Below, one piece after another: positions 9,227 through 40,106 of a DNA stretch of 40,106 nucleotides. Under the pieces are notes generated by a model, which saw only the letters and a list, made by a program, of their open reading frames with translations, made no database searches and had not been told where the DNA came from. A program made the translations under genes and the position numbers. The stretch is from assembly GCA_023300105.1 (NCBI GenBank), contig JALZWM010000053.1, positions 1 through 40,106 on the forward strand, read 5' to 3'. The DNA is from Hellea sp. GTDB lineage: Bacteria; Pseudomonadota; Alphaproteobacteria; Caulobacterales; Maricaulaceae. Each line of letters opens with the position of its first letter. Within the stretch, counting starts at the first letter, position 1.

Positions 9227-9288
9227 ATGCTGCGCCCCTATCATGCATAAAGGCAAGGCGCACGATATATTCGTATCGGTATAGGTGC

Positions 9289-19435: not shown

Positions 19436-19508
19436 ATTTTACTGATAATGTCGGTCTCGGATTGAACTTAGCTTCACCGTGAGATAGGCGGCTAAAAAGG
19501 ATAAAATA

Positions 19509-20945: not shown

Positions 20946-20948
20946 ACC

Positions 20949-21926
20949 ATGTTGATCATTGACGCCCTACAATATGTAAATTGGACGCGAGAGCTTTTCG
21001 AGGAGGCAAAAGCGGGCGGCGTCAGTGCTATTCATGTGACCATTGCCTATTGGGAGAACCGCCGAGATACGCTTGAAAATATTGGTGATTGGCGTCAGCG
21101 GTTTCGCGAGCACTCAGACCTTATAATGCCAGTCCGCAAAGGGGCCGACATCCTCACCGCGCAAGCGCAGGGTAAGATCGGCATTATCTTTGGTTTCCAA
21201 AATTGCTCGCCCATAGAAGACGATTTACGCATGGTTGAAACGCTTTATGATCAGGGCGCGCGGATCATGCAGCTGACTTATAATAATCAAAGCCTTCTGG
21301 CGACGGGATGTTATGAGGAAGGTGATAGCGGCGTCACACGATTTGGCCGGGAGGTTATAAAAGAAATGAACCGCGTTGGTATGGTGATTGATATGTCCCA
21401 CAGTGCGGAGCACTCTACGCTTCAAACTATCGAACTATCCGAACGCCCCATCGCCATTACCCATGCAAACCCAATGCGCTGGCACGAAGCTTTGCGTAAT
21501 AAATCCGACACCGTTTTAAAGGCTCTCAGTGAGAGCGGCGGCATGCTAGGGTTTTCTATGTACCCTTTCCATTTGAATAATGGTCCTGATTGTACATTGG
21601 ATGATTTCTGCGGCATGATTATTGACACCGCAGACTTAATGGGAATTGATTGCATTGGTATCGGGTCTGATCTTTGCCAGAACTGGGGCTATGAAACTTT
21701 GGAATGGATGCGCTCAGGTAAGTGGACATTTAAGCCAGATTACGGTGAGGGCAGCGCAGCGAATGCAGATTGGCCGCGTCAACCAGAGTGGTTTGCGTCT
21801 TCAAAAGATTTTGGAAATATTGCCACTGGCCTCAAAGATAAAGGCATGTCCCAAGGCGACGTAGAAAAAATTATGGGCGTTAATTGGCTTAATTTCTTCA
21901 CAGCTAGCTTTGAGCCTAAGGGCTAA
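20949..21926 (+). CDS. M19 (membrane/renal dipeptidase) family protein with a reduced metal site
   Basis: A 325-aa TIM-barrel amidohydrolase-fold protein with no signal peptide, so cytoplasmic despite the family name. Family blocks are visible: MQLTYNNQSLLATGCYE, VIDMSHSAEHST and IAITHANPMRW (the two barrel His ligands of M19), and CIGIGSDL with the conserved Asp. The usual N-terminal HxD metal ligands (DGHNDLP) are replaced by IDALQYVNW, and the bridging Glu position reads GFQNCS. It therefore looks like the non-canonical branch found next to dimethylglycine demethylase genes in Pseudomonas aeruginosa (PA5396-type), which I recall as sharing this odd N-terminus. Function there is unknown. 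It is coupled to its neighbours by 3-bp and 1-bp gaps. Confidence 0.8.
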   Translation: MLIIDALQYVNWTRELFEEAKAGGVSAIHVTIAYWENRRDTLENIGDWRQRFREHSDLIMPVRKGADILTAQAQGKIGIIFGFQNCSPIEDDLRMVETLYDQGARIMQLTYNNQSLLATGCYEEGDSGVTRFGREVIKEMNRVGMVIDMSHSAEHSTLQTIELSERPIAITHANPMRWHEALRNKSDTVLKALSESGGMLGFSMYPFHLNNGPDCTLDDFCGMIIDTADLMGIDCIGIGSDLCQNWGYETLEWMRSGKWTFKPDYGEGSAANADWPRQPEWFASSKDFGNIATGLKDKGMSQGDVEKIMGVNWLNFFTASFEPKG

Positions 21927-21927
21927 G

Positions 21928-23637: not shown

Positions 23638-24392
23638 TGTCGGACACTGAGACCTTAAACTTATCCTTGAATGAGCTGCGCGCGCTTTTACGGCGTACAT
23701 ATGAAGCTCTCTATCATCATGGATATGATTTTCTCGTTATGGCGCGCTCATGTTTATGGCTTGAAGTTCACGGTCTTGACGGGATTGGACTTATTTTGAG
23801 GAGTCTACCAGACTTAGAAACCCCGTGCCGCGAAATTATGCTGACAGAACCTTCGTTGGGCCAATTTATATTGGAAGGGCACGGACGATGCTTAATTCCT
23901 TTTGTGAATGTATCTGCTGACCTCGCTATTGCTGCGGCGCAGGACACCGGTTTCGGGCAAATAGATATTTTAAATGTGTTTGGTCGGCTGAATATTTTTG
24001 CGGCCTTGAAAAAGTCAGCCCGGCTGAATCTACACGCGGCGTCCATCTGGTACGATGCAGGAGAGCAGCGCACTCATGTTTTATGGCTTCAACCGTCCAA
24101 AGCCTTGCCTGATTATTATATATTAAACGAAATACATGAGGGGCCTTGGGGGGAATCAGGATTAAGGTTCGTTTGTTCTGAAGTCGAAAAGACGGTTACT
24201 AATAATGTCCGTGCCGTATTAGCTGATAATATTGTCCCCTTTAAGACTGCCAAAGACTTTACTGACGTCTATGAACACGCCTTAGAAAACGGGATTGCGG
24301 TTAACCGTAAAGCCTATGCAAAACTTAATAAAATTGCAGACCGCTTGCTAGTACCGTCTACGGATGCGTCGCGGCAAGGGGCTGGCGAGTAA
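23637..24392 (+). CDS. Uncharacterised 251-aa protein, possibly DUF3726-like
   Basis: The start overlaps the stop of the 569-aa gene as TAATG, which implies translational coupling; an in-frame start at 23604 would lengthen the overlap and is less likely. The N-terminus LSLNELRALLRRTYEALYHH followed by a Trp-Leu-Glu-x-His-Gly-Leu-Asp-Gly segment recalls my memory of DUF3726 proteins (SLNE... HGLDG), a family of unknown function. The middle, from GRCLIPFVNVSADLAIAAAQ to GRLNIFAALKKSA, is mixed hydrophobic without membrane spans. No catalytic motif is evident. It is the last gene of the operon, followed by a 174-bp spacer. The family link should be treated as a hypothesis. Confidence 0.7.
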   Translation: MSDTETLNLSLNELRALLRRTYEALYHHGYDFLVMARSCLWLEVHGLDGIGLILRSLPDLETPCREIMLTEPSLGQFILEGHGRCLIPFVNVSADLAIAAAQDTGFGQIDILNVFGRLNIFAALKKSARLNLHAASIWYDAGEQRTHVLWLQPSKALPDYYILNEIHEGPWGESGLRFVCSEVEKTVTNNVRAVLADNIVPFKTAKDFTDVYEHALENGIAVNRKAYAKLNKIADRLLVPSTDASRQGAGE

Positions 24393-24535: not shown

Positions 24536-24566
24536 CTACAATTAGTTATAAAATAGGACTGTGGGC

Positions 24567-27017: not shown

Positions 27018-28268
27018 ATGAAATATTCTGCTGCTAGCTTATTTGCGAATGCACTCTCAGGTCATAAAAAATGGCCTGTGCAATTTCCAGATAAGGAACC
27101 AAAAAAGTCTTATGACGCCATTATTGTTGGCGGCGGCGGTCATGGTCTTGGCGCGGCTTATTATCTCGCCAAACGATACGGCATTACCAATGTCGCTGTC
27201 TTAGAAAAGGGCTGGATTGGCGGCGGGAATACAGGCCGAAATACGACAATTATCCGCTCGAACTATCTCTTTGATGAGAGTGCAGCCATGTATGATCATG
27301 CTGTTGATTTATGGGACGGCCTTGGACAAGAGCTTAATTATAATCTGATGTTCTCAAAGCGCGGCGTGCTTATGCTCGCGCATAATGTTCACGATGTTCA
27401 AAGCTTTCAACGCCATGTTCATGCGAACCGACTTAACGGTGTTGATAATAAATGGATGACACCAGAAGAATGTAAAGCTTTTTGTCCGCCTCTCGATATC
27501 TCGCAAAACCGCCGTTACCCCGTTATGGGCGCGGCTCTACAAATGCGCGCAGGCACAGCCCGCCATGATAGTGTTGCGTGGGGATATGCGCGCGCGGCGA
27601 GTAAACTTGGCGTGGACATTATTCAGAACTGTATGGTCACAGGTATTCGGCGCGGCGCGGACGGCGCAGTCGAAGGTGTTGAAACGCAAAAGGGATACAT
27701 TGCTTCAAACAAAATTGGGGTCTCTGCTGCGGGTAACAGCTCAGTTGTAATGGAAATGGCAGGATTGCGGTTTCCTCTGGAAAGCTATCCTCTGCAAGCG
27801 TTAGTTTCAGAACCCATAAAGCCTATTATGCCCTGTGTAGTTATGTCCAATGCAGTACATGCCTATATTAGTCAGTCTGATAAAGGTGAGCTCGTTATCG
27901 GAGCAGGCACGGACCAATATACAAGTTATAGTCAACGCGGGCCTTTGCATCTTCAAGAACATAATGTTGCAGCAATTTGCGAAATTTTCCCAATTTTTAA
28001 ACGCCAACGCATGTTGCGCTCTTGGGGTGGAATTGTTGACGTAACGCCGGATCGTTCACCGATCGTGGGTAAGACCCCTGTTAAAGGGCTTTATGTAAAC
28101 TGCGGTTGGGGCACAGGTGGTTTTAAAGCAACGCCAGGGGCAGCGGATATGCTGGCATATACAATAGCCCATGACGCGCCGCATAAAATCAACGCACCGT
28201 TTAACTTAGACCGTTTTGTTGGCGGTCGCTTAATCGACGAAGCTGCTGCTGCTGCTGTCGCACATTAG
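27018..28268 (+). CDS. soxB: Sarcosine oxidase subunit beta
   Basis: Catalytic flavin subunit of the heterotetrameric enzyme that oxidises sarcosine to glycine, transferring the methyl carbon to THF and producing hydrogen peroxide. The 416-aa protein has the dinucleotide-binding loop [18 protein letters not shown] (residues 34-51), the [12 protein letters not shown] block, and [14 protein letters not shown] with His183, the equivalent of the His that binds FMN covalently at the alpha-beta interface. The C-terminal [15 protein letters not shown] and [11 protein letters not shown] complete the DAO fold. It begins 3 bp after the dimethylglycine dehydrogenase stop and is followed by soxD, A and G in the canonical order. 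Confidence 0.96.
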
Positions 28269-28277
28269 GGATAAAAA

Positions 28278-28613
28278 ATGTTTGAGATTCATTGTCCTTA
28301 TTGTAACGAAAAGCGTGCTGAAATTGAGTTTTCTTATGCTGGGGAAGCTCATATTGTGCGGCCTAATGCAAAGCAACAACCCGTAATGTCGGATGAAGAC
28401 TGGTCACGTTACATGTTTATTCGAGACAATATCCGAGGCGAACATGCAGAGCGGTGGTGGCATAATGCAGGTTGTAATATGTTCTTCAATGCTATCCGTA
28501 ATACCGTAACCGATAAATTCGTGATGACTTATAAAATGGGTTCGCCTCGGCGTACAGCAAAACAGATTGATGTCGCCCGCGAAACAAATACTGCGGATAA
28601 GGCAAAGACATGA
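28278..28613 (+). CDS. soxD: Sarcosine oxidase subunit delta
   Basis: The small zinc-binding subunit of heterotetrameric sarcosine oxidase, 111 aa. The zinc ligands fit the family: Cys6 and Cys9 in CPYC, His62 and Cys66 in WWHNAGCNMFF. EDWSRYMFIRDN is also typical. GGGATAAA precedes the ATG, and the stop overlaps the soxA start as ATGA, so the two are translationally coupled. Confidence 0.95.
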   Translation: MFEIHCPYCNEKRAEIEFSYAGEAHIVRPNAKQQPVMSDEDWSRYMFIRDNIRGEHAERWWHNAGCNMFFNAIRNTVTDKFVMTYKMGSPRRTAKQIDVARETNTADKAKT

Positions 28614-31582
28614 GCGCGTTTCGTAAAGCCGGGCGGGGCATCGTTGATAGCGCCAAAGCCATTAACTTCACCTTTGATGGCAAGACCTATCAAGGTTTTG
28701 AGGGCGATACTGTTGCTTCGGCTTTACTAGCTAGCGGCAATCACCTAATGGGCCGAAGCTTTAAATATCATCGACCGCGCGGTGTTCTTGGGGCGGGGTC
28801 AGAAGAACCAAATGCTTTGATAGCTATAGACCGCGGTACTGGCCGTGTGACCCCGAATGTGAGGGCCACGACGCAAGAAATATATGAAGGTTTAAATGCT
28901 GAAAGCCAGAACCGTTCACCTAACTTAAAGTTTGACATGGGCGCGTTTAACAATGCCTTCTCTATATTTTTCCCTGCCGGTTTTTATAATAAAACATTCC
29001 TTTGGCCAAAGAGCTTTTGGGACAAGGTCTATGAACCTTTTATCCGTAATATGGCTGGGCTCGGGCCTGCGCCCACAGCCGATGACCCTGACGTCTATGC
29101 GAGCTCTTACGGTCATTGCGAAACACTCATTATTGGCGGCGGTCCTGCGGGGCTTGCGGCGGCCCTCGCTGCAGCAAAAAGCGGTGAACCTGTTATCCTT
29201 GTCGATGAGAATCCGCAATTGGGCGGTAGTTTACTAACAACACCAACTATTGAAATTAACGGCAAACCTGCGCGTGATTGGATTGCGAAATCACTAAAGA
29301 TTCTAAGCAAAGCTGAGAATGTCACGCTCATGACGCGTACAACGGCGACAGGATATTATCATGATAATTTCGTTGCACTGGTTGAGCGCATTACGCATCA
29401 TGTTCCAAATGCTAAAATTGGCAAGGTCCGTGAAGAGCTTCACCGTATCCGCGCAAAAAGAGTGATTTTGGCACAGGGTGCTATTGAGCGGCCTCTAGTT
29501 TTTAACGGTAATGACCGACCAGGCGTTATGCTCGCGTCAGCTGCGCAGGCATATCTCGGACAGTACGGCGTTGCGGTTGGTAATGAAGCTGTGGTTTTTA
29601 CGAGTCACGATACTGCCTATCAGGCAGCTTTTGATTTGGCAGATGCCAATATTCGTATTGCAGCGATTATTGATGTACGCGACGAAGTTCAAAATGATCT
29701 TACCGAGGGCGCAACGCAACGCGGGATTAAGATTATACGCTCTGCTGTTATATCTAAAACATTTGGTACACTGCGCATTAAAGCATGCGAAATTTATGAG
29801 CCTGAAACGGGAATAAAAACTAAAATTAGGTGCGACGCGTTGTTAATGTCTGGAGGTTGGACACCAAGCTTACATCTTTGGTCACATTCAAAAGGCGGCA
29901 TTAAATGGGATGCTGATATTGCGGCTTACTTGCCAGATGTTGCAAATGAGAATGCCGTATGTGTCGGGGCGTGTAATGGAGACTTTGGCATAGCTGCAGC
30001 TCTGAGTGCAGGCCATAAGGCAGGCCAAAAAACAGGTGGCGGGCGTAAGGTTTACAAAACAAATGAAGCCGATTTTGGAACGGGTGTTGTCAATAATGGT
30101 CTACCCAATTACATTGATACGGCTAAGCAAAAAGCCTTTGTCGATTTTCAAAATGATGTGACGGAAAAGGATATCAAGCTTGCTGTGCTTGAAGGTTTTA
30201 AATCCATCGAGCACGTTAAGCGCTATACCACTAATGGTATGGCGACTGACCAAGGCAAGACATCTAATCTGAACGCCTTGGAAATTGCATCGAAAGCCGT
30301 TGGGAAACCTATTGAAAAAGTTGGTCTGACGACCTTCCGTCCGCCTTATACGCCGACAACATTTGGGGCATTGACAGGGTATCGCGACGCCGAATTATTT
30401 GATCCTACACGTAAAACATCTATCGACCCGTGGGCAGAAGCGAACGGGGCTGTTTTTGAACCCGTCGCGCATTGGCGCCGTGCTTGGTATTTCCCTAAGG
30501 CGGGAGAAGATATGCATGCGGCTGTTTCAAGGGAATGCAAAGCGACCCGCGATAGCCTCGGTATTTTTGATGCGTCGACATTAGGCAAGATAGAGGTTGT
30601 TGGCCCTGATGCCGCGAAGTTTATGAACCTGATGTACACAAACCCGTGGAGCGCGCTCCCTGTAGGTGGATGCCGTTACGGTCTTATGTGCCGCGAAGAT
30701 GGTTATATTTATGATGATGGTGTTGTTGGACGTATGGCGGAAGATCGTTTTCATGTCACAACCACAACAGGTGGCGCGCCGCGTGTTTATCGCCATATGG
30801 AAGATTACCTGCAAACAGAGTTTCCACATTTGGATGTCTGGTTAACGTCAACCACAGAACAATGGGCGACTATTGCTATTAATGGTCCGAATGCGCGTAA
30901 GCTAATTGAACCTTTTGTAGAAGGTATTGATTTATCGCCAGAGGCTTTCCCTCATATGAAATTGCGTGAAGGCAAAATATGTGGCGTCCCAACACGCCTT
31001 TTTCGGGTAAGTTTCACGGGTGAGCTCGGTTTTGAAATCAATGTACCAAGTCACTATGGTCGTGCCCTCTGGGAAACGCTTATGGAGGCAGGAAAGCAAT
31101 ATGAAATTTGTCCATACGGGACTGAAACCATGCATGTTCTAAGGGCTGAAAAAGGCTTTATTATTGTCGGTCAAGACACTGACGGCACGGTCACGGCCCA
31201 TGATGCGGGTATGTCTTGGGCAGTATCTAAAAAGAAAAAAGACTTTGTCGGCAAGCGCTCTCTTGCGCGGACTGACTTGACGGCGAATGGGCGAAAGCAC
31301 CTTGTTGGCTTGCTCACCGAAGACCCGAACATTGTTCTAGAAGAGGGCGCTCAGATTGTGACGGACCCAAACCAACCTATCCCAATGGATATGCTAGGCC
31401 ATGTGACGTCGAGCTATTGGAGTGAGCCTCTAGGACGTTCTATTGCTATGGCGATGGTTAGGGACGGGTTTAACCGTATGGACGAGACTTTGCATGTGCC
31501 AATGCCAAATATGGCGCATAAGGTGAAAGTTGTGAAACCCGTTTTCTATGATCCAAAAGGGGAGAAGCTTAATGTTGTTTGA
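28610..31582 (+). CDS. soxA: Sarcosine oxidase subunit alpha
   Basis: The large subunit (990 aa) of heterotetrameric sarcosine oxidase, binding NAD+ and folate. In order: an N-terminal ferredoxin-like domain (INFTFDGKTYQGFEGDTVASALLASG, with SFKYHRPRG), a dinucleotide-binding domain (LIIGGGPAGLAAALAAAKSG, about residues 172-191), an RVILAQGAIERPLVF segment and a second fold with MSGGWTPSLHLWSHS, and a C-terminal GcvT-like folate domain from about residue 600 (TLGKIEVVGPDAAKFMNLMY, VSFTGELGFEINVPSHYG, ETMHVLRAEKGFIIVGQDTDG). Length matches the usual 960-1000. It overlaps soxD by 4 bp and soxG by 11 bp. Confidence 0.96.
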   Translation: MSAFRKAGRGIVDSAKAINFTFDGKTYQGFEGDTVASALLASGNHLMGRSFKYHRPRGVLGAGSEEPNALIAIDRGTGRVTPNVRATTQEIYEGLNAESQNRSPNLKFDMGAFNNAFSIFFPAGFYNKTFLWPKSFWDKVYEPFIRNMAGLGPAPTADDPDVYASSYGHCETLIIGGGPAGLAAALAAAKSGEPVILVDENPQLGGSLLTTPTIEINGKPARDWIAKSLKILSKAENVTLMTRTTATGYYHDNFVALVERITHHVPNAKIGKVREELHRIRAKRVILAQGAIERPLVFNGNDRPGVMLASAAQAYLGQYGVAVGNEAVVFTSHDTAYQAAFDLADANIRIAAIIDVRDEVQNDLTEGATQRGIKIIRSAVISKTFGTLRIKACEIYEPETGIKTKIRCDALLMSGGWTPSLHLWSHSKGGIKWDADIAAYLPDVANENAVCVGACNGDFGIAAALSAGHKAGQKTGGGRKVYKTNEADFGTGVVNNGLPNYIDTAKQKAFVDFQNDVTEKDIKLAVLEGFKSIEHVKRYTTNGMATDQGKTSNLNALEIASKAVGKPIEKVGLTTFRPPYTPTTFGALTGYRDAELFDPTRKTSIDPWAEANGAVFEPVAHWRRAWYFPKAGEDMHAAVSRECKATRDSLGIFDASTLGKIEVVGPDAAKFMNLMYTNPWSALPVGGCRYGLMCREDGYIYDDGVVGRMAEDRFHVTTTTGGAPRVYRHMEDYLQTEFPHLDVWLTSTTEQWATIAINGPNARKLIEPFVEGIDLSPEAFPHMKLREGKICGVPTRLFRVSFTGELGFEINVPSHYGRALWETLMEAGKQYEICPYGTETMHVLRAEKGFIIVGQDTDGTVTAHDAGMSWAVSKKKKDFVGKRSLARTDLTANGRKHLVGLLTEDPNIVLEEGAQIVTDPNQPIPMDMLGHVTSSYWSEPLGRSIAMAMVRDGFNRMDETLHVPMPNMAHKVKVVKPVFYDPKGEKLNVV

Positions 31583-32120
31583 TCAAGCGGTTGATATTCC
31601 CGAAATTTTTAAGTCTGAGCGTGTTAGTGTTACTTTGATAGAGGGTAAGGCACGTTATAATCTGCGTGTTAAGGCAGCTGATGTAACAGCCTTTAAAAAA
31701 TCCACAGGATTAAAACTCCCCTCTAAAATAGGCAGCTCCTCTTTGAGTAAAGTTGTATCATGCTTGAAGCTTGGGCCTGATGAATGGCTTGTGATAGCGA
31801 ATTCCACGCAACAAAAGAAACTCGATAAAGTTTTTGAAAAAGCGTCTAAGGATTTTATTTGTAGCATCACGGATATCTCTCACCGTAATATAGGGTTTGA
31901 GGTTTCGGGGGAACTGGCCGCTAAATTAATCAATGTTGGATGTCCTTTAGATTTATCATTGACGGCTTTTCCTGTCGGCAAGGTGACGCGGACAATTTTC
32001 GAGAGCGCGCAGATAATGTTACTCCGTACGGGCGAAGATAGCTTTCATGTTGAATGTTGGAGATCCTTTGCACCTTACTTACGCGATTATTTTAAACGCG
32101 TTATGACAACACGGTATTAG
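31572..32120 (+). CDS. soxG: Sarcosine oxidase subunit gamma
   Basis: The fourth subunit, 182 aa, shaped like the end of a GcvT-fold domain. GPDEWLVIAN, ITDISHRNIGFEVSGELAAKLINVGCPLDLS and GKVTRTIFESAQIMLLRTGEDSFHVECWRSFAPYLRDYF are the conserved SoxG segments. An in-frame start at 31548 exists, but AGGGGAG just upstream of 31572 and the 11-bp overlap with soxA favour the later start. A short gap of about 130 bp precedes the carrier gene. Confidence 0.93.
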   Translation: MLFDQAVDIPEIFKSERVSVTLIEGKARYNLRVKAADVTAFKKSTGLKLPSKIGSSSLSKVVSCLKLGPDEWLVIANSTQQKKLDKVFEKASKDFICSITDISHRNIGFEVSGELAAKLINVGCPLDLSLTAFPVGKVTRTIFESAQIMLLRTGEDSFHVECWRSFAPYLRDYFKRVMTTRY

Positions 32121-32249: not shown

Positions 32250-33857
32250 ATGTCAGGCAAGACAACTGTCATCGCTGAGAATAAGTTAGATATTAAAACG
32301 GCAAGCTCCGGGTTTTATGAAGGATTTATTCCTGTCGTTGCTATCGGCGCGAAAATCCTTATCGGGGCCTTGATTTTATGGGCTGCTTTCTTTCCCTCGC
32401 AAGCCGGAGCTGTTTTGTCGAAGTTACAAAACTGGTCAACATCCGCTTTTGGGGCTTGGTATATGTGGGTGACAACTTTTTATGGGATTTTTTGTTTAGC
32501 TATTGCAGCTTGGCCAAAGACTGGCCGAATTAGACTGGGTGGACTTGACGAAAAGCCGGAGTTCTCTCGGTTTTCATGGTTCTCTATGATGTTTGGCGCT
32601 GGTATTGGCGTCGGAATGCTTACCTATTCAACAGCAGAACCTATTTTCCATTTTGCGAATAACCCTGATGTCATAAAAGGTTTATCAAATGGTGCCAATC
32701 CTGACAATGTTCGCAATGCCTATAAGTGGGCCATGCTGCATTACGGAATTACGCCATGGGCGTGCTACGGAATTGTTGGGATGGCACTGGCGTACTTTGC
32801 ATATAACCGAAAACAGCATCTTTCATTTCGCTCTTCTTTAAGGCCTCTATTTGGAAAATATCTTGAAGGCACTTTAGGGCACATCGTTGATATCGTCGCT
32901 ATTTTGGCAACCATCATTGGCGTGAGTGTAACAATAGGTTTTGGTGTGTCTCAATTTGCTTCAGGCGTTTTCAATATTACAGGGTTTGAATGGATTAGCG
33001 CTGGCAATGGTAAGCCTACATTACTCGCGCAATTATTAGCGCTCGTAATCATTATAAGTGCGTCTGTTATGTCTGCACTTTCAGGTGTGAACAAAGGCAT
33101 TAAATGGCTGTCTAATATCAATATGGGTTTGTCGTTTTTCCTTCTCTTCTTCTTTGTAATATTTGGCGCGACTGGGTTTGCATTTAAACAGTTCTTCGTG
33201 ACGATTTGGGATTACGTACTAGCGCTTCCTGCAATGTCCATCACTGTTTGGCCCGAAGGTAAGCTTGCGGATTGGCAAGGCGCTTGGACCATTTTTTATT
33301 GGGCGTGGTGGATCGCTTTTGCGCCTTTCGTAGGATTGTTCCTCGCACGTGTTTCAAGGGGCCGTACAATTAGAGAATATGTTCTCGGCGCAATGTTTAT
33401 TCCTGCAGCCATGGGACTAGCTTGGTTTGTACTGGTCGGCGGTACTGCCATAGACTTAGAGCTTTCAGGTGTTGCGCAGGGGAGCATTATTAATGCTGAT
33501 ATTTCAGCACAGCTCTTTCAGACTATCAATTTAATCCTCACGCCGCTAATGGCCAAAGTGATGTCATTCGTTATAGTTGTGCTGCTTTTGACCTATCTCG
33601 TGACATCGGCAGACTCAGCGATACTCGTGATTAATACTATAACTTCAGCTGGCAACCGCGCGCGTGCACACAAGCATCACATTATTATTTGGGGAGGTAT
33701 TTATATCGCTGTTGTAGCCGCGCTACTTATGGCTGGCGGCATGAATGCTTTAAAGTCAGCCATGATTGTGGGCGCACTACCGTTCTCGATGGTCATGGCC
33801 TTGATGGCTATTTCATTGGCCAAGGCGTTAATTTTTGATCGCAAAAATGAAAACTGA
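32250..33857 (+). CDS. BCCT-family betaine/carnitine/choline-type transporter
   Basis: A 535-aa inner-membrane secondary carrier with about twelve hydrophobic spans. The BCCT signatures are clear: MFGAGIGVGMLTYSTAEP (about residues 114-131) and IFYWAWWIAFAPFVGLFLARVSRGRTIREYVLG (about 350-380), the aromatic-box region that binds trimethylammonium substrates. VTSADSAILVINT near the end is also typical. The GAGIGVGM form is nearer the sodium-coupled BetP side than the CaiT antiporter side, but coupling is not certain. AGGGAAA precedes the ATG. Glycine betaine, dimethylglycine or DMSP are likely substrates given the demethylation genes on both sides. Confidence 0.93.
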   Translation: MSGKTTVIAENKLDIKTASSGFYEGFIPVVAIGAKILIGALILWAAFFPSQAGAVLSKLQNWSTSAFGAWYMWVTTFYGIFCLAIAAWPKTGRIRLGGLDEKPEFSRFSWFSMMFGAGIGVGMLTYSTAEPIFHFANNPDVIKGLSNGANPDNVRNAYKWAMLHYGITPWACYGIVGMALAYFAYNRKQHLSFRSSLRPLFGKYLEGTLGHIVDIVAILATIIGVSVTIGFGVSQFASGVFNITGFEWISAGNGKPTLLAQLLALVIIISASVMSALSGVNKGIKWLSNINMGLSFFLLFFFVIFGATGFAFKQFFVTIWDYVLALPAMSITVWPEGKLADWQGAWTIFYWAWWIAFAPFVGLFLARVSRGRTIREYVLGAMFIPAAMGLAWFVLVGGTAIDLELSGVAQGSIINADISAQLFQTINLILTPLMAKVMSFVIVVLLLTYLVTSADSAILVINTITSAGNRARAHKHHIIIWGGIYIAVVAALLMAGGMNALKSAMIVGALPFSMVMALMAISLAKALIFDRKNEN

Positions 33858-33896
33858 TTTTTCAAAATTCCAAAAAAAGAGTTTTAAACGATAGCT

Positions 33897-33922
33897 GATT
33901 TAATACTTATGCAGATTAAATC
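33897..33922. repeat. Inverted repeat in the gap between convergent carrier and demethylase genes
   Basis: GATTTAAT (33897-33904) and ATTAAATC (33915-33922) are perfect inverted copies with a 10-base loop. A second, wider pair, TGCCGT (33946-33951) and ACGGCA (33992-33997), spans the stop of the minus-strand gene. The gap therefore has structure at the end of both genes, but no classical T-run terminator is clean. Confidence 0.35.
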
Positions 33923-33983
33923 GATTAATATTACTCTCATGACCTTGCCGTAAAAGTTTTTTTGTACCTGTTGCAAGCTTCAA

Positions 33984-35090
33984 TTAAATAAACGGCATTT
34001 TTTTGATTTCCGCGTCACGGTTTCCATCAGGTGTTTGAATTGTAAGTTTCGTGCCTATATCCCAATGATCTTTGGCAATCATGCCAATCGAAACATTTGT
34101 ATTAAGGTCTGGCGACCAAGCCGCTGAGGTTACTTCGCCGACTTGCGCGCCTTTTGCCATAACTGGCCAAGGGTTACGGCAAGGGGACACTGCAATACCT
34201 GAAATAGTCAGACCGCGAATTTGTTGCTTAGGGCCATTTTCTTGCTCTTTGCGTAAGACATCACCGCCAATACAACTCGTAGCAGCGGGGCCTTTGCAAA
34301 ACTTACCAAGTCCAGCTTCGTAAGGGGTATTCTTGATTGTCATGTCATTACCGTATGAGAGTAATCCGCCTTCGATACGTTCAATGAGATTAGGGCATCC
34401 AGCACGAACATTTAAGTCTTTACCAGCCTCGAAAAGCGCGTCCCATATAGGTTCGCCATTCTCCGTCCCATCGACATAAATTTCAAAACCACCTTGCACG
34501 GAGTAACCTGAACGCGCGACGGTGAAGGGCTTCCCATTGAAGTTTATTTTCATGTGCCGAAAGAATTTCAAATTCCGAATACTATCCCCAAAAACACGGG
34601 CCATAAGTTCATCTGATTGAGGGCCTTGAATAGCAAGCGGGGAGACATCAGGTTCGAAAATATCAGCATTTAAGCTTCGCCCATTGGCTAGGCCTTTAAC
34701 CCAATATAGCAAATCTGAATCTGCGATAGAAATCCACCATCTATCATTGTTATGTTTAACAGCGACAGGGTCATTTAGCATGCCGCCATTTTCATCAACG
34801 ACAGGGATGTAATAACACTGATCATCTTTCATCTTGGAGAGATTACGCGGCGTCAGCATTTGAACAAGTTTGGCTGCATCAGGCCCTTTAACTTCGACTT
34901 GCCGCTCGACCGCAACATCCCAAACTTGAACGTGCTTTTTTAAATGATGATAATCGGCTTCAACACTTTCAAAGACAGTTGGCAGTAGCATACGGTTATA
35001 GACTGTATAGGCTTTGACGCCATGTTCAGCATTACGCCGAGTCCAAGGTGTTCTACGCGTGCGGCGCGAGATTGATAAAATAGGGTCCAT
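33984..35090 (-). CDS. dmdA: DmdA-like dimethylsulfoniopropionate demethylase (GcvT/aminomethyltransferase family)
   Basis: A 368-aa folate-fold protein. DmdA moves a methyl group from DMSP to THF, giving methylmercaptopropionate. The N-terminus SRRTRRTPWTRR, TVYNRMLLPTVFESVEADYHHL, KHVQVWDVAVERQVEVKGPDA, QMLTPRNLSKMKDDQCYYIP, WWISIADSDLLYWVKGLANG, EPDVSPLAIQGPQSD, VARSGYSVQGGFEIYVDG and GCPNLIERIEGGLLSYGND follow closely the sequence I remember for SAR11 DmdA, and differ from standard GcvT. Some DmdA homologues do not act on DMSP, so the substrate needs proof. No dmdB, dmdC or dmdD is in view. GAGGAGGG precedes the ATG. It lies 52 bp downstream of a SoxB-like flavoprotein gene on the same strand. 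Confidence 0.78.
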   Translation of the reverse strand: MDPILSISRRTRRTPWTRRNAEHGVKAYTVYNRMLLPTVFESVEADYHHLKKHVQVWDVAVERQVEVKGPDAAKLVQMLTPRNLSKMKDDQCYYIPVVDENGGMLNDPVAVKHNNDRWWISIADSDLLYWVKGLANGRSLNADIFEPDVSPLAIQGPQSDELMARVFGDSIRNLKFFRHMKINFNGKPFTVARSGYSVQGGFEIYVDGTENGEPIWDALFEAGKDLNVRAGCPNLIERIEGGLLSYGNDMTIKNTPYEAGLGKFCKGPAATSCIGGDVLRKEQENGPKQQIRGLTISGIAVSPCRNPWPVMAKGAQVGEVTSAAWSPDLNTNVSIGMIAKDHWDIGTKLTIQTPDGNRDAEIKKMPFI

Positions 35091-35142
35091 TTAACCCTCC
35101 TCAGTTAAGGTGATTTTGTTTTGAGCTCTAGGATATTTGGAC

Positions 35143-36495
35143 TTAGCTCCAAGGGAAAGGGCTGTTCGATGTTGGGTGTAACTTACCTTCTGCATATCGC
35201 GAAAATCTGAAGGGTTTGAGTAATTCAGATGTGCTGCCCATAATATGCTCAGCAACAAGTTTGCCGACGCCGAGCATTTTATAGCCATGGTTAGAGTCGG
35301 CAATAACATAAGCGTTTTCACAAAATTCATCGAAAACAGGGAAGCTATCGGGTGTAAAACAGCCGACGCCGCCGGATGGTTCTTTGTCGAATTTATTCAT
35401 GGTTCCTTCAAAGCGCTTATGGCAATGGGCAAGGGCAGATACCCACATATGTGCGAATTCAGGCGAGGATATCCATTCCGGTGAAGCTGGGCCATAAGGG
35501 TCAAGCTGCAACTCATCTACGGGTGTTGTGACGGGGTATGGCATAGCGCCGCCTTGAACACCGCCAAAGTGAAAGTCGGGCTTGTAATAGAGGCCCCAAA
35601 TATTTCCTTCTTCTTCTATGACTGTGCCGTCGACCACCGATTTCAAAGCGGCATCTGTATCGACGTGCATAACGGGCGGTTGTTTGCCGTCATTTGTTTT
35701 AAACATTTCAGGGTCAACATTTAAGACACCTTCTTCGAGTTGCCAAAATGTCCACATGTCGACATTGTCATGCAGGCTGCCGTCAGCCCCTTTTATTGAA
35801 ATAACCTTTGGGAGGTCTAGCATTGTCCAAAAGTCTCTGACCCATGGTCCTGCGCCTATGACAACATAATCGCATTCGATATTGCCTTTTGAGGTTTCTA
35901 CGGCGCGAATGGACGAAGAGACCCCATTTGCGCGCTTAAAACCAGTGACTTCTAACCCCGTGATGATACGTACGCCTTCGGCTTCGGCCTTAACGGCAAG
36001 TCCGTGCATAGCTTTGGTGTTATTGGCATAACCGCCTTTTTTCTCATGCAAAACAGAGGTGATGTTCTGGGCTTGCCAGTCGTCATAAATACCGCGCATA
36101 TATTGGCGGCAATCATCATGGCCTTCAATTAATGTACTCTCATAGCCTATGGCTTGTTGTTGTTCATAAATCTCGCCAATATCTGAGTGCATTGACTCGC
36201 ATGAAATCTGCATATAGCCGACAGGGTGATAGGAATAATTTTGCGGGTCAGATTCCCAGACATTGACTGAATGCGCCATGAGTTCCCGCATAGCGGGCTG
36301 ATAATAATTATTACGGACTACTCCGCAGGCAATACCCGATGCGCCAGAGGCTATACCGCCCTTATCCAGAATAACGATATCTTCCCCGTCTCCTTTGCCA
36401 GAGGCTTTGAGTTCAAGGGCGAGGTGATAGGCTGTCGATAAGCCATGTATACCCGCACCTATAATGACATAAGGCGATGATTTAGGGAAAGCCAC
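35143..36495 (-). CDS. SoxB-like FAD-dependent oxidoreductase (DAO family)
   Basis: A 450-aa flavoprotein with the ADP-binding loop YVIIGAGIHGLSTAYHLALEL (residues 9-29), the DAO segment GGIASGASGIACGVVRNNYYQPAM, VVIGAGPWVRDFW and the C-terminal GGVGCFTPDSFPVFD...YVIADSNHGYKMLGVG. CGVVRNNYYQPAMRELMAHSVNVWE parallels the [13 protein letters not shown]...DHAVDLWD stretch of the SoxB protein in this same window, so it is a sarcosine oxidase-beta-like relative. It lacks the GTARHD FMN His motif. The start is GTG at 36495, preceded by AAGGAG at a 5-base spacing; an ATG two bases upstream is out of frame. It is followed by the DmdA-like gene, suggesting joint oxidation and folate transfer. Substrate unknown. 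Confidence 0.8.
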   Translation of the reverse strand: MAFPKSSPYVIIGAGIHGLSTAYHLALELKASGKGDGEDIVILDKGGIASGASGIACGVVRNNYYQPAMRELMAHSVNVWESDPQNYSYHPVGYMQISCESMHSDIGEIYEQQQAIGYESTLIEGHDDCRQYMRGIYDDWQAQNITSVLHEKKGGYANNTKAMHGLAVKAEAEGVRIITGLEVTGFKRANGVSSSIRAVETSKGNIECDYVVIGAGPWVRDFWTMLDLPKVISIKGADGSLHDNVDMWTFWQLEEGVLNVDPEMFKTNDGKQPPVMHVDTDAALKSVVDGTVIEEEGNIWGLYYKPDFHFGGVQGGAMPYPVTTPVDELQLDPYGPASPEWISSPEFAHMWVSALAHCHKRFEGTMNKFDKEPSGGVGCFTPDSFPVFDEFCENAYVIADSNHGYKMLGVGKLVAEHIMGSTSELLKPFRFSRYAEGKLHPTSNSPFPWS

Positions 36496-36650
36496 ATATT
36501 CTCCTTGCTCTTATAAGCCTAGAGTTAAGCGCTTCGTGGTTTTTAAACAATAAATGATAATGGAAAGTATTGAAATTTATTAACTAGCATTATGAATATT
36601 GATTATTGGCCTAAATTTAAATTTAATTTGATGTTTAAGGGGATTTAACT

Positions 36651-36669
36651 TTATCATTTCTAATGATAA
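36651..36669. promoter_or_regulatory. LysR-type operator candidate in the divergent spacer
   Basis: TTATCATT (36651-36658) and AATGATAA (36662-36669) are perfect inverted copies around TCT, and the core TCATT-N3-AATGA fits the T-N11-A LysR consensus. A further AATGATAA lies at 36553-36560, and an AT-only 14-bp palindrome at 36612-36625. The element is 38 bases before the lysR start, as expected for autoregulation and control of the divergent flavoprotein-dmdA pair. Confidence 0.5.
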
Positions 36670-36707
36670 GTCACCTTAATAGTGCAGCAGGCATTGGGGA
36701 TTATAAT

Positions 36708-37670
36708 ATGAAGATACCTAATAACTTTGACCTCCGTTCATTGCAGGTTTTTGTCATAACAGCCGATCATGGCGGTATGACACAAAGCGCTAAAGTCTTG
36801 CGTATGACACAGTCGGCCGTGTCTCAAATCATAGCAGGTTTAGAGCTTTCTGTTGGTGTAAAGCTCTTTGACCGTTCTGTTAGGCCTATAGTCTTAACAT
36901 CTGCGGGGCGCATTCTGTTGGACCGCGGGCGGCAAATTTTAAAAGATACGAAAGAAGCTTTTCGTGAAACGCAGACACTGGAACATCGTAAATTAGCTTC
37001 ACTCACAATTGCTATGACCGATAGTATGTCAGCCGTCTTGGGGTCTCATTTATATGAGACAATGAACGAAATCTCTAACTATTGGAGGTTTTGGAGTGGG
37101 TTATCTCCGTATCACAGAGAAGAGTTTTTATCCCATAATATCGATATAATCATCACAAGTAGTAATGTTATGGAAGATGTTGGCGGGCTTAATCGTTATA
37201 GAGTTTTTCAAGAGCCTTATGTTTTGATTTTTCCAAAAGGATATAAAGGGGCCGTTGATTTATCTGATGAAGCTCGAGATCTGCCCTTTCTAAGATTTTC
37301 TATGCGCTCCGCAATGGGGCTACGTATTGAACGCCAACTCAACCGTTTACGCTTAAAATTTCCTGATGTTGCTGAGTTTGATAGGGCTCCTGCCCATACT
37401 CTCGCTGTTGCAAAAGGTATGGGATGGGGCGTGACAACGCCTTTATGTTTACTTGAAAACCCTCAACTCATAGAACATGTTGAGGTTCATCCCATATCTC
37501 GCGGGGCGTTTAGCCGTCATTTTGATCTGCTATCGCGTGAAGATAACCTTGGAGATATTCCAGAAAAAATAGCACATGAATCACGAAACATATTGAAAGA
37601 CAGATGTTTGCCAACACTTTATTCAGAAGTACCGTGGCTCGAAGAAATGATTTTATTAAATGAGGATTAA
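36708..37670 (+). CDS. LysR-family transcriptional regulator
   Basis: A 320-aa regulator. The N-terminal winged helix-turn-helix spans about residues 5-66: LRSLQVFVITADHGGMTQSAKVLRMTQSAVSQIIAGLELSVGVKLFDR...LTSAGRILLDRG is typical LysR. The C-terminal part is a periplasmic-binding-protein-like effector domain, somewhat divergent (LASLTIAMTDSM, YVLIFPKGYKG, LAVAKGMGWGVTTP). An in-frame start at 36663 falls within the dyad; GGGGA at 36696-36700, 7 bases before 36708, supports the later start. It is divergent from the SoxB-like/DmdA-like pair and upstream of the Rieske gene, so it may sense a methylated osmolyte or a breakdown product and control one or both. Regulation of betaine use in Pseudomonas uses an AraC-type regulator instead. 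Confidence 0.93.
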   Translation: MKIPNNFDLRSLQVFVITADHGGMTQSAKVLRMTQSAVSQIIAGLELSVGVKLFDRSVRPIVLTSAGRILLDRGRQILKDTKEAFRETQTLEHRKLASLTIAMTDSMSAVLGSHLYETMNEISNYWRFWSGLSPYHREEFLSHNIDIIITSSNVMEDVGGLNRYRVFQEPYVLIFPKGYKGAVDLSDEARDLPFLRFSMRSAMGLRIERQLNRLRLKFPDVAEFDRAPAHTLAVAKGMGWGVTTPLCLLENPQLIEHVEVHPISRGAFSRHFDLLSREDNLGDIPEKIAHESRNILKDRCLPTLYSEVPWLEEMILLNED

Positions 37671-37762
37671 GCGACGTTAAGTTTGCTAATACCGTATATG
37701 GTTTTCACTTATTGCTCTTGTCCGGGCTTGCTAGAATGGGGAACCACGCTTTAGATAAAATC

Positions 37763-38899
37763 ATGAATTTAAAAGATGTCATGAAGCCTGTGGAAACAGC
37801 GCGCGGCCTACCAAATAAGCACTACATTTGCGAGAAGATGTATAAGCGTGAACGCGAGGTCGTTTTCTTTAAAAACTGGTCAGCTATAGCCTTTGAGAGT
37901 GACGCGGCTAAGTCTGGTGATGCATTCCCTATAGATTTTATGGGTATGCCGCTCTTGCTCGTGCGAGATAAAGAGGGGGTGTTGAGCGTATTTCAAAACA
38001 CTTGCCGTCACCGTGGTATGATTTTGGTGGATAAACCTACCCAGTTAAAGAGGCTGATTCGATGTCCTTACCACAGTTGGTGCTATGACCACGCAGGCAT
38101 GCTTATTCGAACACCTCATGTAGGCGGCGTTGGTATAGATAGGCATGAGGCGATTAAGCCAGAAGACCTCAGCTTGTTTAAAATCCGTAGTCATGTTTGG
38201 CACGGTGTTGTCTTTGTAAATATTTCGAATGATGCCTTGCCTTTTGAAGAGGTACACGCTGATTTATTGTTACGTTGGAGTGAATTTAATCAACCCTATC
38301 ATTTAGGCGGTCAAGCCAGCCGTTTTGATATGACCCTTGCTGCGAATTGGAAATTGGCTATCGAGAATTTTTGTGAGTCCTATCATTTACCATGGGTGCA
38401 TCCTGAGCTGAATAAAATTTCGCCAATAAACGTGCATTACAACATAGAAAACCATGACAATTATTCGGGGCAAGGCAGCCGCAATTACAACCAATTAATT
38501 GGTAAAGGCGGGCAGCGCTTTCCTGACTTTAAAAATGTATCTGATATTTGGGATCATCAATCTGAATATGTCTCATTCTTCCCTAATGTCTTACTGGGTG
38601 TTCACCGCGACCATAGTTTTGCGATGATATTAATGCCGCAAGGTCCAGAGCAAACATTGGAACGTGTGGCCTTGTTTTATGCGAATGAAGATATCGATAC
38701 TGACGATTGGCAAAAGATGCTTAAGGAGAACACACGCATTTGGCAGACAGTCTTTTCCGAAGACGTCAATGTTGTTGAAGGCATGCAAAAAGGGCGGCAT
38801 GGCGTTATGTTTGATGGAGGTAAGTTCTCCCCGGTTATGGACGGGCCGACCCATATTTTTCATAAATGGGTTGCACGACAAATGCAGGCTTCTGAATAA
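37763..38899 (+). CDS. Rieske non-heme iron oxygenase, probable N-demethylase
   Basis: A 378-aa oxygenase alpha subunit. The Rieske [2Fe-2S] ligands are Cys81, His83, Cys101 and His104 (CRHRG...CPYHSW). The mononuclear iron site is His208 and His213 in ENFCESYHLPWVH, with Asp334 in SEDVNVVEGMQKG. It belongs to the group with glycine-betaine (GbcA), stachydrine and carnitine oxygenases and choline monooxygenase; these hydroxylate an N-methyl group or adjacent carbon. Conversion of glycine betaine to dimethylglycine plus formaldehyde would feed the dimethylglycine dehydrogenase here, but the substrate is inferred from context. No reductase partner gene is in the window. Starts at 37712 and 37736 are also possible; none has a strong ribosome site. 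Confidence 0.85.
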   Translation: MNLKDVMKPVETARGLPNKHYICEKMYKREREVVFFKNWSAIAFESDAAKSGDAFPIDFMGMPLLLVRDKEGVLSVFQNTCRHRGMILVDKPTQLKRLIRCPYHSWCYDHAGMLIRTPHVGGVGIDRHEAIKPEDLSLFKIRSHVWHGVVFVNISNDALPFEEVHADLLLRWSEFNQPYHLGGQASRFDMTLAANWKLAIENFCESYHLPWVHPELNKISPINVHYNIENHDNYSGQGSRNYNQLIGKGGQRFPDFKNVSDIWDHQSEYVSFFPNVLLGVHRDHSFAMILMPQGPEQTLERVALFYANEDIDTDDWQKMLKENTRIWQTVFSEDVNVVEGMQKGRHGVMFDGGKFSPVMDGPTHIFHKWVARQMQASE

Positions 38900-38989: not shown

Positions 38990-39472
38990 ATGGTCACATT
39001 GCTAAATACAGTCGAAGATAAATTCGCGCGTAGTATTTGTGCTGAGCACGGTGACAAAGCAGATGAGCTTCTAGAAATTTTGCATGAAGTGCAGAACCAA
39101 AAAGGGTATCTGAGCGACGGTGCCATGCGAACAATTGCTCATGCACTGAATATTTCGCGTGCAGAAATTCACGGCGTTGTTAGCTTTTACCACGATTATA
39201 AGCGTGAAGCTGCGGCGAAGCAGACAATTAAAATATGCCGGGCTGAAGCGTGTCAGGCCATTGGCGCTGATGCTTTGATTGCGCAGGCCGAAGCTGCGTT
39301 TGGCACGACGCTTGATGCCCAATCAAAAGAGATTGGTCTTGAGGCGACATATTGCTTAGGGAATTGCGCTCTCGGGCCTGCTGTCATGATAGAGAATAAA
39401 CTCTATGGGCGTGTTGATATTGCTAAGCTTAAAAACTTATCGATGAAGCACCGTGAAGGTTCAAAATCATGA
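38990..39472 (+). CDS. fdsG: NAD-dependent formate dehydrogenase subunit gamma
   Basis: A 160-aa NuoE-like subunit. The [2Fe-2S] ligands are Cys83, Cys88, Cys122 and Cys126 (KICRAEACQAIG and ATYCLGNCALGP). The N-terminal half is the helical region with LLEILHEVQNQKGYLSDGAMRTIAHALNIS and HGVVSFYHDY. Together with the downstream gene it matches FdsG of soluble molybdenum formate dehydrogenases rather than the respiratory complex, because the next gene is FdsB, not NuoF. AAGGAC precedes the ATG, and the stop overlaps the next start (ATGA). It oxidises formate, the end-product of the C1 chain, to CO2. Confidence 0.92.
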   Translation: MVTLLNTVEDKFARSICAEHGDKADELLEILHEVQNQKGYLSDGAMRTIAHALNISRAEIHGVVSFYHDYKREAAAKQTIKICRAEACQAIGADALIAQAEAAFGTTLDAQSKEIGLEATYCLGNCALGPAVMIENKLYGRVDIAKLKNLSMKHREGSKS

Positions 39473-40106
39473 GTTCTAATGTTTATATCCCGCGCGATGC
39501 CGCCGCTCTGTCCGTTGGGGCACATGAGGTCTCACTTGCCATAGCTCAACAAGGCAGTGATGCTGTTACCATTATCGGAAACGGCTCTAGGGGCATGTTA
39601 TGGCTTGAGCCGCTTGTCGAAGTGGAAACTGAGGCTGGCCGCATGGCTTATGGGCCTGTGACCCCAGATGATGTTGAAAGCCTATTCGCCGCAGATTTTT
39701 TAAATGGGGGCGAGCATCCGCTTTCATTGGGACTTACTGAAAACATCCCCTATCTCGCTAATCAAGAGCGGCTTACATTCGCGCGGGTTGGCGTTATCGA
39801 TCGTTTAAATCTGACAAATTATCAAACACACGGCGGCTTGGAAGGGCTGTCCAAAGCCTTAAAAATGACGCCCGAAGCCATTGTCGAAATGGTTACTGAG
39901 TCTGGTCTTCGCGGGCGCGGCGGGGCGGGTTTTCCGACTGGAATTAAATGGAAAACAGCTTTAGCCCAACGCATTTCTGATACTGAGGGGGGGCAAAAAT
40001 ATATCTGCGCCAATGCAGATGAGGGCGATAGCGGAACTTTTGCGGATAGGCTTCTCATGGAAGGCGACCCGTTCTCTCTGATTGAGGGCATGATTATTGG
40101 CGCGCG
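39469..40106 (+). CDS. fdsB: NAD-dependent formate dehydrogenase subunit beta (N-terminal part; gene runs off the window)
   Basis: About 212 codons are present before the window ends. The protein starts MSSNVYIPRDAAALSVG, with a NGSRGMLWLEPLVEVETEAG stretch and GGEHPLSLGLTENIPYLANQ, and enters the NuoF-like fold with ESGLRGRGGAGFPTGIKWKT (about residues 143-162, FMN/NADH loop) and CANADEGDSGTF. The combination of a Cys-free thioredoxin-like N-terminus and the LTFARVGVIDRLNLTNY linker is what I remember for FdsB. The catalytic molybdenum subunit (fdsA) is expected next and is outside the window. It overlaps fdsG by 4 bp. Confidence 0.92.
   Translation, partial: MSSNVYIPRDAAALSVGAHEVSLAIAQQGSDAVTIIGNGSRGMLWLEPLVEVETEAGRMAYGPVTPDDVESLFAADFLNGGEHPLSLGLTENIPYLANQERLTFARVGVIDRLNLTNYQTHGGLEGLSKALKMTPEAIVEMVTESGLRGRGGAGFPTGIKWKTALAQRISDTEGGQKYICANADEGDSGTFADRLLMEGDPFSLIEGMIIGA

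Follow-up and report, generated by a model that had tools for sequence, protein, structure and literature searches.

The DmdA-type protein of Hellea sp. and its flavoprotein neighbour look like two enzymes of methyl-compound feeding, not halves of one

Gene content of the locus

The window analysed here is the whole stretch of 40,106 nucleotides taken from a Hellea sp. contig (JALZWM010000053.1). Two intact open reading frames lie next to each other on its minus strand. The upstream one (36495 to 35143) encodes a DAO-family flavoprotein, FL (35143–36495, 450 amino acids; Pfam DAO, PF01266, 6.5e-36), and the downstream one (35090 to 33984) is dmdA (33984–35090, 368 amino acids; Pfam GCV_T, 6e-41, and GCV_T_C, 5.2e-15). 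They are separated by 52 bases on the same strand (35091–35142), in which GAGGAGGG is a ribosome-site-like stretch ahead of dmdA, confirming the spacing and shared strand described in an earlier sequence-only reading of this DNA. When FL is aligned with three homologues, its GTG start falls at their Met start. A scan of 33700–36800 returned nine promoter-like sites, compared with 6.5 (sd 2.6) in shuffles, and seven terminator-like sites, compared with 2.9 (sd 1.4), the majority of them within FL; one terminator-like site, on the minus strand at 35098–35082, spans the dmdA start. FL and dmdA probably belong to one transcription unit.

The surrounding genes are on the plus strand. Divergent from the pair is a LysR-type regulator (36663–37670; Pfam HTH_1 and LysR_substrate), whose position is conserved by synteny in five related loci (L016–L019 and L022). 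It is followed by a Rieske oxygenase (37712–38899; Pfam Rieske and Ring_hydroxyl_A), whose nearest solved relative is the carnitine monooxygenase CntA (6y8j_A, 107 bits) and which scores well below the cut-off of the GbcA model (112.6 vs 670 bits). The start of a formate-dehydrogenase-like cluster comes next (fdsG and fdsB, 38990–40104, fdsB extending past the window end); the best NCBIfam models are formate dehydrogenase gamma (163.9, cut-off 198) and, for the truncated protein, NuoF (101.5, cut-off 558.65). The same formate-dehydrogenase-like neighbours occur at one related locus (L013). On the other side of the pair lie a BCCT transporter of the betaine/carnitine/choline type (32250–33857; Pfam BCCT, 5.8e-149) and a sarcosine oxidase operon comprising soxB (27018–28268, 680.9 bits against the SoxB model, cut-off 529), soxD (28278–28613) and soxG (31548–32120), both named by translation and operon position only, and soxA (28610–31582), in which the GcvT half was detected. 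Adjacent to soxB, a gene at 24561–27014 encodes a single chain of 817 amino acids with both a DAO and a GcvT domain. Its NCBIfam matches, ThiO/SoxB type for the first half and SoxA/GcvT type for the second, are all below cut-off, and the putative name DMGDH is based on architecture and position.

The adjacency of a DAO and a GcvT-like fold resembles the fused dimethylglycine dehydrogenase/oxidase, and FL and DmdA resemble in fold the two DMGDH domains. The sequence-only reading had proposed a possible split demethylase doing the job of the fused enzyme. In such a system, FL would oxidise an N-methyl compound and DmdA would capture the one-carbon unit on folate, like the fused DMGDH halves. The window pair consists of separate chains, two reading frames each ended by a stop. 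The fused DMGDH-type gene is present in the same window, which argues against this proposal.

The DmdA protein

The window DmdA scores 594.9 bits against the NCBIfam DMSP-demethylase model NF009133 (cut-off 410), matches PDB entry 3tfh with an E value of 2.3e-108 (46% identity across 349 amino acids) and is 64.2% identical to the DmdA of Phaeobacter inhibens. In a tree of 63 rows, which omits a copy of the window protein (L106) and a fragment (L151) and from which the R. pomeroyi DmdA of the literature is absent, the window and P. inhibens proteins share a 19-row set (support only 90/75) within a 31-row set (100/99), and the crystallised DmdA of P. ubique (Pelagibacter) enters at a 45-row set (89/87). 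The GcvT, SoxA and DMGDH outgroups separate at 99/99 on long branches, and the tree warns that long branches meet. The protein thus falls with the P. inhibens and P. ubique DmdA and apart from GcvT, a placement that counts against the split demethylase. The DMSP demethylases with which it groups are backed by a crystal structure and by a knock-out (PMC5395565, PMC12366255).

Site residues, given in P. ubique numbering, point in the same direction. Like the P. ubique and P. inhibens enzymes, the window DmdA has Asn (N107) at the position of the GcvT/SoxA Asp, as do 61 of the 62 DmdA and DmdA-like rows (the sole exception is a distant row), and it has the folate-site Tyr, Y206, also present in 61 of the 62. 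The missing Asp is a further point against the split demethylase. E204 is present too and occurs in GcvT, SoxA and DMGDH, and is therefore non-discriminating. The roles of N107, Y206 and E204 are taken in part from PMC7487153, which also names W171 as a key DMSP residue; with an offset of 26, we take this to be P. ubique position 197. Here the window DmdA differs from the crystal protein, with Tyr instead of Trp. Tyr likewise occupies this position in P. inhibens and in 14 of the 29 DmdAs collected at class level, all over the family cut-off; 3 of the 17 rows from the family have Phe. Since over-cut-off DmdAs carry Tyr-197, Trp-197 is not family-defining in the rows tested.

The same genome encodes one dmdB-like gene (54%) and two dmdC-like genes (47% and 41%), the DmdB candidate scoring far below the MMPA-CoA ligase cut-off (330 vs 822 bits). 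In P. inhibens, dmdA adjoins dmdB/dmdD, whereas in the window it adjoins FL. From family score, clade and site residues we infer that the window protein is a true DMSP demethylase. Tetrahydrofolate would receive one methyl group of DMSP in a redox-free transfer that yields methylmercaptopropionate and 5-methyl-THF and requires no flavoprotein. A redox-neutral transfer giving 5-methyl-THF, by a mechanism distinct from that of GcvT, is described for DmdA in PMC5395565.

The FL protein

No NCBIfam model matches FL over its cut-off; all listed oxidase models are far below, including the SoxB model TIGR01373 (74.7 bits, cut-off 529.45). The AlphaFold model of FL, for which only 24 similar sequences were used, has a pLDDT of 82.6, with weak stretches at 50–53 and 331–343. 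Its best solved folds are the L-proline dehydrogenase beta subunit (1y56_B, Z 37.3) and the sarcosine oxidase beta subunit (Z about 35), overall Z 34–37, although identity to these proteins is 20–22% and the second half of FL is longer. The monomeric oxidases MSOX and MTOX, also products of a single gene, match at Z about 32, but with 14–17% identity and with NCBIfam scores far below cut-off. Judged by this model, FL is a separate family with the SoxB/MSOX fold. Unlike the fused dimethylglycine dehydrogenase, the window combines a flavoprotein nearer to SoxB and L-proline dehydrogenase beta with a folate protein of the DMSP-demethylase family.

Two observations of the sequence-only reading hold for FL: the R-x-N-Y block is common to FL (RNNY) and the window SoxB (RSNY), and FL lacks the SoxB His motif, with Asn159 in place of the His of 'RHD', which we take to be the FMN carrier. 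SoxA, SoxD and SoxG partners are likewise lacking in FL's own minus-strand unit. At the position of the window DMGDH His near the FAD site, presumably the covalent FAD link, FL has Ile55. Arg61 and Lys406 are invariant in 24 FL proteins and align with the Arg and Lys of SoxB, not with the DMGDH half (MSOX lies outside the alignment); we assume that they correspond to the carboxylate-binding Arg52 and Lys348 of MSOX. The absence of the DMGDH His, with the SoxB-type Arg and Lys instead, is another argument against the split demethylase; no family was ruled out from the alignment on grounds of absence.

With its DAO Pfam domain and MSOX-type fold, FL fits the broad group of DAO-fold N-methyl amino acid oxidoreductases. 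It is probably a stand-alone oxidoreductase that acts alone on an N-methyl amino acid, the substrate being suggested by the fold, the two presumed binding residues and the company of genes in which FL is found.

Distribution and genomic context of FL

A single scan covering 84,980 species genomes detected 318 FL stretches, and neighbours were counted for the best 80, i.e., the relatives nearest to the window (66–86% identical). Within these 80 loci, FL lies near GbdR-like regulators in at least 33, SoxA/SoxB in at least 27, Rieske oxygenases in at least 24 and glutamine-synthetase (GS)-like operons in at least 15; none of the named neighbours was found in 15. The counts are lower bounds because greedy ORF choice lost the FL frame in 7 of the 80 loci and, where genomes are GC-rich, probably some neighbours as well, and because many flanks are short; neighbour clusters were named from a single representative each or from sequence alone. 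FL is an uncharacterised but widespread single-gene flavoenzyme family, whose members frequently have betaine-type Rieske oxygenases or N-methylglutamate-type genes in their vicinity. Carriers of FL include the cultured Hellea balneolensis DSM 19091 (L016), Marinobacterium jannaschii (L069) and Celeribacter strains (L027, L028). The Rieske group of the FL tree shows no more clustering than do shuffled labels, 67 of 500 shuffles being as low; we interpret this as repeated association, although it could also be noise.

Some FL neighbourhoods contain a GbcA-like Rieske oxygenase and a reductase, and others GS-like and glutamate-synthase-like (mgs-type) genes, then folD. In such loci, FL could stand in for the usual enzyme as a single-protein dehydrogenase of dimethylglycine or N-methylglutamate. 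Yet SoxA-family proteins are encoded in 16 of the 16 genomes searched (15 with a GS-like gene near FL, and L048 with an mgsB-like gene only), over cut-off in 15, and the window has DMGDH and soxBDAG, so there is no gap for FL to fill. The same SoxA-family proteins weaken the idea that, within the GS/mgs-type operons, FL takes the place of N-methylglutamate dehydrogenase or of sarcosine oxidase. Nor can the GS-like protein clearly be called a gamma-glutamylmethylamide synthetase: among solved structures, it matches a general glutamine synthetase (193 bits) ahead of the type III ligase 7cql (176) and the glutamate-methylamine ligase 9qur (167). Replacement of a usual dehydrogenase is a possible but doubtful role for FL. 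A place for FL in the published homarine pathway was considered as well; a citing paper (PMC13390433) states only that Mgd participates in homarine catabolism.

A role of FL in DMSP breakdown, for example the oxidation of a by-product or a downstream product of DMSP, is favoured by its position beside dmdA in Hellea-type genomes, and in one further locus (L014) a DddP-like gene (512 bits, cut-off 600) is found roughly 1.4 kb away from FL and a Rieske gene. However, the named neighbours are mostly of the N-methyl type, and among the 80 closest FL loci only 6, all of the Hellea type, have true dmdA, the DMSP gene counted, in their fetched flanks (a DmdA-like FL neighbour at L077, with only 34% identity, was left out of this count). 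We consider such a role unlikely.

Conservation of the FL–dmdA pair

FL and dmdA are adjacent, on the same strand and in the same order, in 8 of the 17 other genomes of the family that have a close dmdA, with gaps of 16–141 bases (FL stop codon excluded), and because of this repeated pairing the gene order is beyond chance. Retention of the order in nine genomes of one family, window included, asks for some shared use; it is a point against independent enzymes and in favour of a split demethylase. Against the latter, FL is undetected in 5 of the 17 related genomes with a close DmdA and lies apart from dmdA in 4 more, and no GcvT-domain gene is nearby in 20 of the 42 FL loci with full flanks.

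Beyond this one family, FL was found beside DmdA at none of 29 class-level DmdA loci (about 1.5 kb flanks) and in none of 6 plasmid regions with DmdA or a DmdA-like gene (3–5 kb flanks). In the plasmid region L157, a gene annotated as a FAD-binding oxidoreductase lies near a 40% DmdA-like gene, with no FL match even at E 10; plasmid records yielded no FL at E 1e-60. Together with the grouping of DmdA among DMSP demethylases, this is the outcome that the sequence-only reading had named as refuting its main idea. A split DMGDH was rejected on the phylogeny, the Asn/Asp position, the fused DMGDH in the window and the poor conservation of the pair, and we regard a split demethylase as very improbable.

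Two enzymes in a methyl-osmolyte gene cluster

We favour, with good confidence, two independent enzymes encoded in probably one transcription unit within a methyl-osmolyte gene cluster. FL and DmdA look like neighbouring enzymes of methyl-compound feeding rather than halves of one. A Rieske oxygenase or similar step would trim a betaine to an N-methyl alpha-amino acid, secondary or tertiary, that remains for FL. A stand-alone FAD oxidoreductase with the fold of sarcosine oxidase, FL would probably oxidise this compound, and the methyl group would be released as formaldehyde or the electrons passed to a carrier. The BCCT, CntA-like Rieske, DMGDH, soxBDAG and formate-dehydrogenase-like genes of the window fit the alternative offered by the sequence-only reading, that the flavoprotein acts on a second methylated compound, as well as its suggestion that sulfur- and nitrogen-methyl catabolism are joined at this locus. 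A closer union, in which a recruited DmdA takes up the one-carbon unit that FL of Hellea-type bacteria derives from an N-methyl amino acid, so that one DmdA handles S- and N-bound methyls alike, seems to us highly improbable.

The genus Hellea is reported to be abundant on kelp (PMC9238374). The window DmdA adds one more DMSP demethylase, and its pairing with FL is a local arrangement. Once named, the substrate of FL could fill a step in marine nitrogen osmolyte breakdown.

The gene pair and the identity of DmdA

The DAO-family flavoprotein gene (FL, 35143-36495, minus strand, Pfam DAO) lies upstream of dmdA (33984-35090, minus strand, Pfam GCV_T and GCV_T_C), and 52 bases separate the two open reading frames. 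The window sequence confirms this two-gene arrangement on one strand, from which the sequence-only reading had proposed a split demethylase mimicking the fused dimethylglycine dehydrogenase (DMGDH). A small hairpin (35082-35098), which may have arisen by chance, covers part of the dmdA ribosome site and the start codon.

The DmdA of the window belongs to a known family, the DMSP demethylases. It reaches 594.9 bits with the NCBIfam equivalog model for this enzyme (cut-off 410) and falls far below the cut-offs of the NCBIfam GcvT, SoxA and TMAO-demethylase models. Among proteins of solved structure it is closest to the DmdA of P. ubique (3tfh; 366 bits, 46% identity over 349 aa), and it shares 64.2% identity, over 93% of the length, with the plasmid-borne DmdA of Phaeobacter inhibens DSM 17395. 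That plasmid gene is located behind genes annotated as acyl-CoA dehydrogenase, dmdD and AMP-binding protein, an order of the dmdC-dmdD-dmdB-dmdA type. PMC12366255 describes DmdA as the primary enzyme of DMSP demethylation in P. inhibens; its deletion abolished the DMSP-induced shortening of the lag phase under standard conditions but not under salt or oxidative stress. From the strain, we infer that the gene tested is the DSM 17395 plasmid copy.

Phylogeny agrees with this assignment. In a tree of 63 rows, R. pomeroyi DmdA not among them, the protein falls within 18 family rows (support 100/95), half of them with FL alongside (9) and half without (9). The P. inhibens DmdA adjoins these (19 rows, 90/75), a 31-row set (100/99) encloses both together with the Marinovum and Antarctobacter DmdAs, and P. 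ubique DmdA enters at 45 rows (89/87). GcvT, SoxA and fused DMGDH are set apart on long branches (99/99), placing the protein with the P. inhibens and P. ubique enzymes rather than with GcvT. Asn at P. ubique position 107 is found in 61 of 62 DmdA and DmdA-like rows (Ser in the distant row L146), with Asp in GcvT and SoxA and Ser in DMGDH. Y206 is likewise present in 61 of 62 rows; the relatives have Ser (GcvT), His (DMGDH) or Asn (SoxA). E204 is invariant (65 of 65 rows) and thus does not discriminate between DmdA and its relatives. Position 197, Trp in P. ubique, is Tyr in the window DmdA and three named roseobacter plasmid DmdAs; 29 class-level DmdA rows are divided between Tyr (14) and Trp (15).

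A second DmdA-like clade (L155, L156, L157 and L146-L150; 98/100), with 36-41% identity to the window DmdA, occurs on plasmids and within the window's own family. An OsmC protein, an enoyl-CoA hydratase and an acyl-CoA synthetase are encoded behind the DmdA-like gene in L155 and L156; in L157 it is surrounded by folD, purU and genes for methylenetetrahydrofolate reductase and an FAD-binding oxidoreductase. This clade is a candidate for acting on a methyl substrate other than DMSP.

Conservation of the pair

A search of the family (E 1e-60) detected a DmdA-like match in 20 of 119 genomes. In 17 of these besides the window's, the match has 62-82% identity; FL is beside dmdA in eight, on another contig in four and not detected in five, two of which are more than 90% complete (G641, 92%; G682, 91%, with 8% contamination). 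At class level, a DmdA match was found in 50 of 385 genomes and loci were obtained for 30 places including the window; FL was within about 1.5 kb in none of the 29 others, nor was it within 3-5 kb in any of six plasmid regions (three DmdA, three 40% relatives).

FL relatives were found in 318 stretches of species genomes, of which the best 80 were kept. In six of these 80, the retrieved flanking sequence (10 kb at most and frequently shorter) encodes a true DmdA; all six are Hellea-type or 'uncultured Caulobacterales' records, which the FL tree places close to Hellea. The closest FL on a named contig among the 80 is from Hellea balneolensis DSM 19091 (86% identity).

FL is an uncharacterised flavoprotein

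No NCBIfam model scores above its cut-off for the window FL, which belongs to an uncharacterised DAO-fold family. Among solved structures, a profile search relates FL to L-proline dehydrogenase beta (1y56_B, which the sequence listing calls sarcosine oxidase), to sarcosine oxidase beta and to L-amino acid deaminase, with dimethylglycine oxidase and dehydrogenase ranked lower. The AlphaFold model (pLDDT 82.6, pTM 0.86) gives Z 37.3 with 1y56_B, 34-35 with sarcosine oxidase beta and about 32 with monomeric sarcosine oxidase (MSOX) and DMGDH. Alignment bears out the R-x-N-Y block noticed earlier as common to FL and the window SoxB, and the Asn in FL where SoxB has His. Arg61 and Lys406, invariant across 24 FL sequences, align with Arg and Lys of SoxB and with Pro and Thr of the DMGDH half; in MSOX, the equivalent residues bind the substrate carboxylate. 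These features suggest that the substrate is an amino acid that carries an N-methyl group or contains a cyclic secondary amine.

Among the best 80 of 318 FL loci, neighbours include GbdR-like regulators (33 loci), SoxA/SoxB (27), Rieske oxygenases (24; 14 from the same sequence cluster as the window's Rieske protein and 10 GbcA-like), FolD (15) and a glutamine-synthetase-like gene (15, mostly alongside glutamate-synthase-like genes); 15 loci lack any named group, FolD and transporters not counted as such. The SoxA and SoxB representatives score above their cut-offs, the GbdR-like and GbcA-like ones below (266.7 of 480 and 530.3 of 670 bits). The nearest solved structure to the window Rieske protein is carnitine monooxygenase. 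Outside the dmdA loci, the window-type Rieske gene occurs at scattered positions in the FL tree (7 changes, of which starred branches force at least 4); dmdA is limited to one part (2 changes).

Of the 42 FL loci flanked by 9 kb or more on each side, 22 have a GcvT-domain ORF, mostly of SoxA or DMGDH size, and 20 have none; a folate partner is therefore not a constant companion of FL. This argues against FL being half of a split enzyme. According to a review (PMC5395565), the methyl transfer by DmdA is redox-neutral and yields 5-methyl-THF, where GcvT yields 5,10-methylene-THF. Such chemistry can do without a flavoprotein.

In six loci (L040, L049, L057, L065, L074 and L075), FL stands first in what looks like an operon. 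With it are genes for a divergent protein of glutamine-synthetase type (about 495 aa), for glutamate-synthase-like parts and for a protein of 136 aa, the representative of which matches nothing in Pfam; folD is within or near these operons, which possibly encode an uncharacterised amine pathway.

Neighbouring modules and the proposed role of the cluster

A DmdB-like ligase (54% identity) is encoded on contig 25 of the window's genome, which also has DmdC-like dehydrogenases (47% and 41% identity). The ligase scores far below the cut-off of the methylthiopropionyl-CoA ligase model (330 vs 822 bits) but passes that of a model for acyl-CoA synthetases in general (787 vs 677), and is therefore a candidate DmdB only. 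On the same contig (L096, 279-12897), it is found with an MttB-like methyltransferase, a second soxB/soxA-like pair and a PLP enzyme resembling, by eye, O-acetylhomoserine sulfhydrylase, a further mixture of N- and S-methyl genes. Hellea and Litorimonas are related. One Litorimonas genome is reported to have dmdABC and acuH (PMC12662954).

In L014, an FL locus of genome G078, a DddP-like M24 protein (7516-8805; 512 bits, DddP cut-off 600) adjoins a Rieske gene (8808-9968) and FL (10133-11542), downstream of a second soxB/soxA-like pair; here the other DMSP route lies beside the same two genes. A window block of ALDH, M19 dipeptidase and two unnamed proteins (18434-24392) also adjoins FL in L014. 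Relatives of its first three members (58%, 55% and 41% identity) are directly beside dmdA on the P. inhibens plasmid (L152, 6590-11023), in the same order and with a DUF3726 protein replacing the fourth. The block may be part of the same catabolic module.

A literature search, with subscription papers and preprints outside its coverage, returned nothing on a DmdA-FL pair, and titles and abstract openings on flavoprotein, Rieske and betaine demethylation mention no such pair. The divergent LysR gene adjoining FL is retained in related loci, and its product could control FL-dmdA.

Gene content and order are direct observations, and the assignment of genes to routes rests on homology. As a whole, the cluster would most likely pass methyl groups of osmolytes imported by the BCCT transporter to one-carbon metabolism by parallel routes: DMSP would enter by way of DmdA, and a betaine by way of a Rieske oxygenase and then FL; DMGDH and SoxBDAG would take dimethylglycine and sarcosine, and the putative formate dehydrogenase would handle formate.
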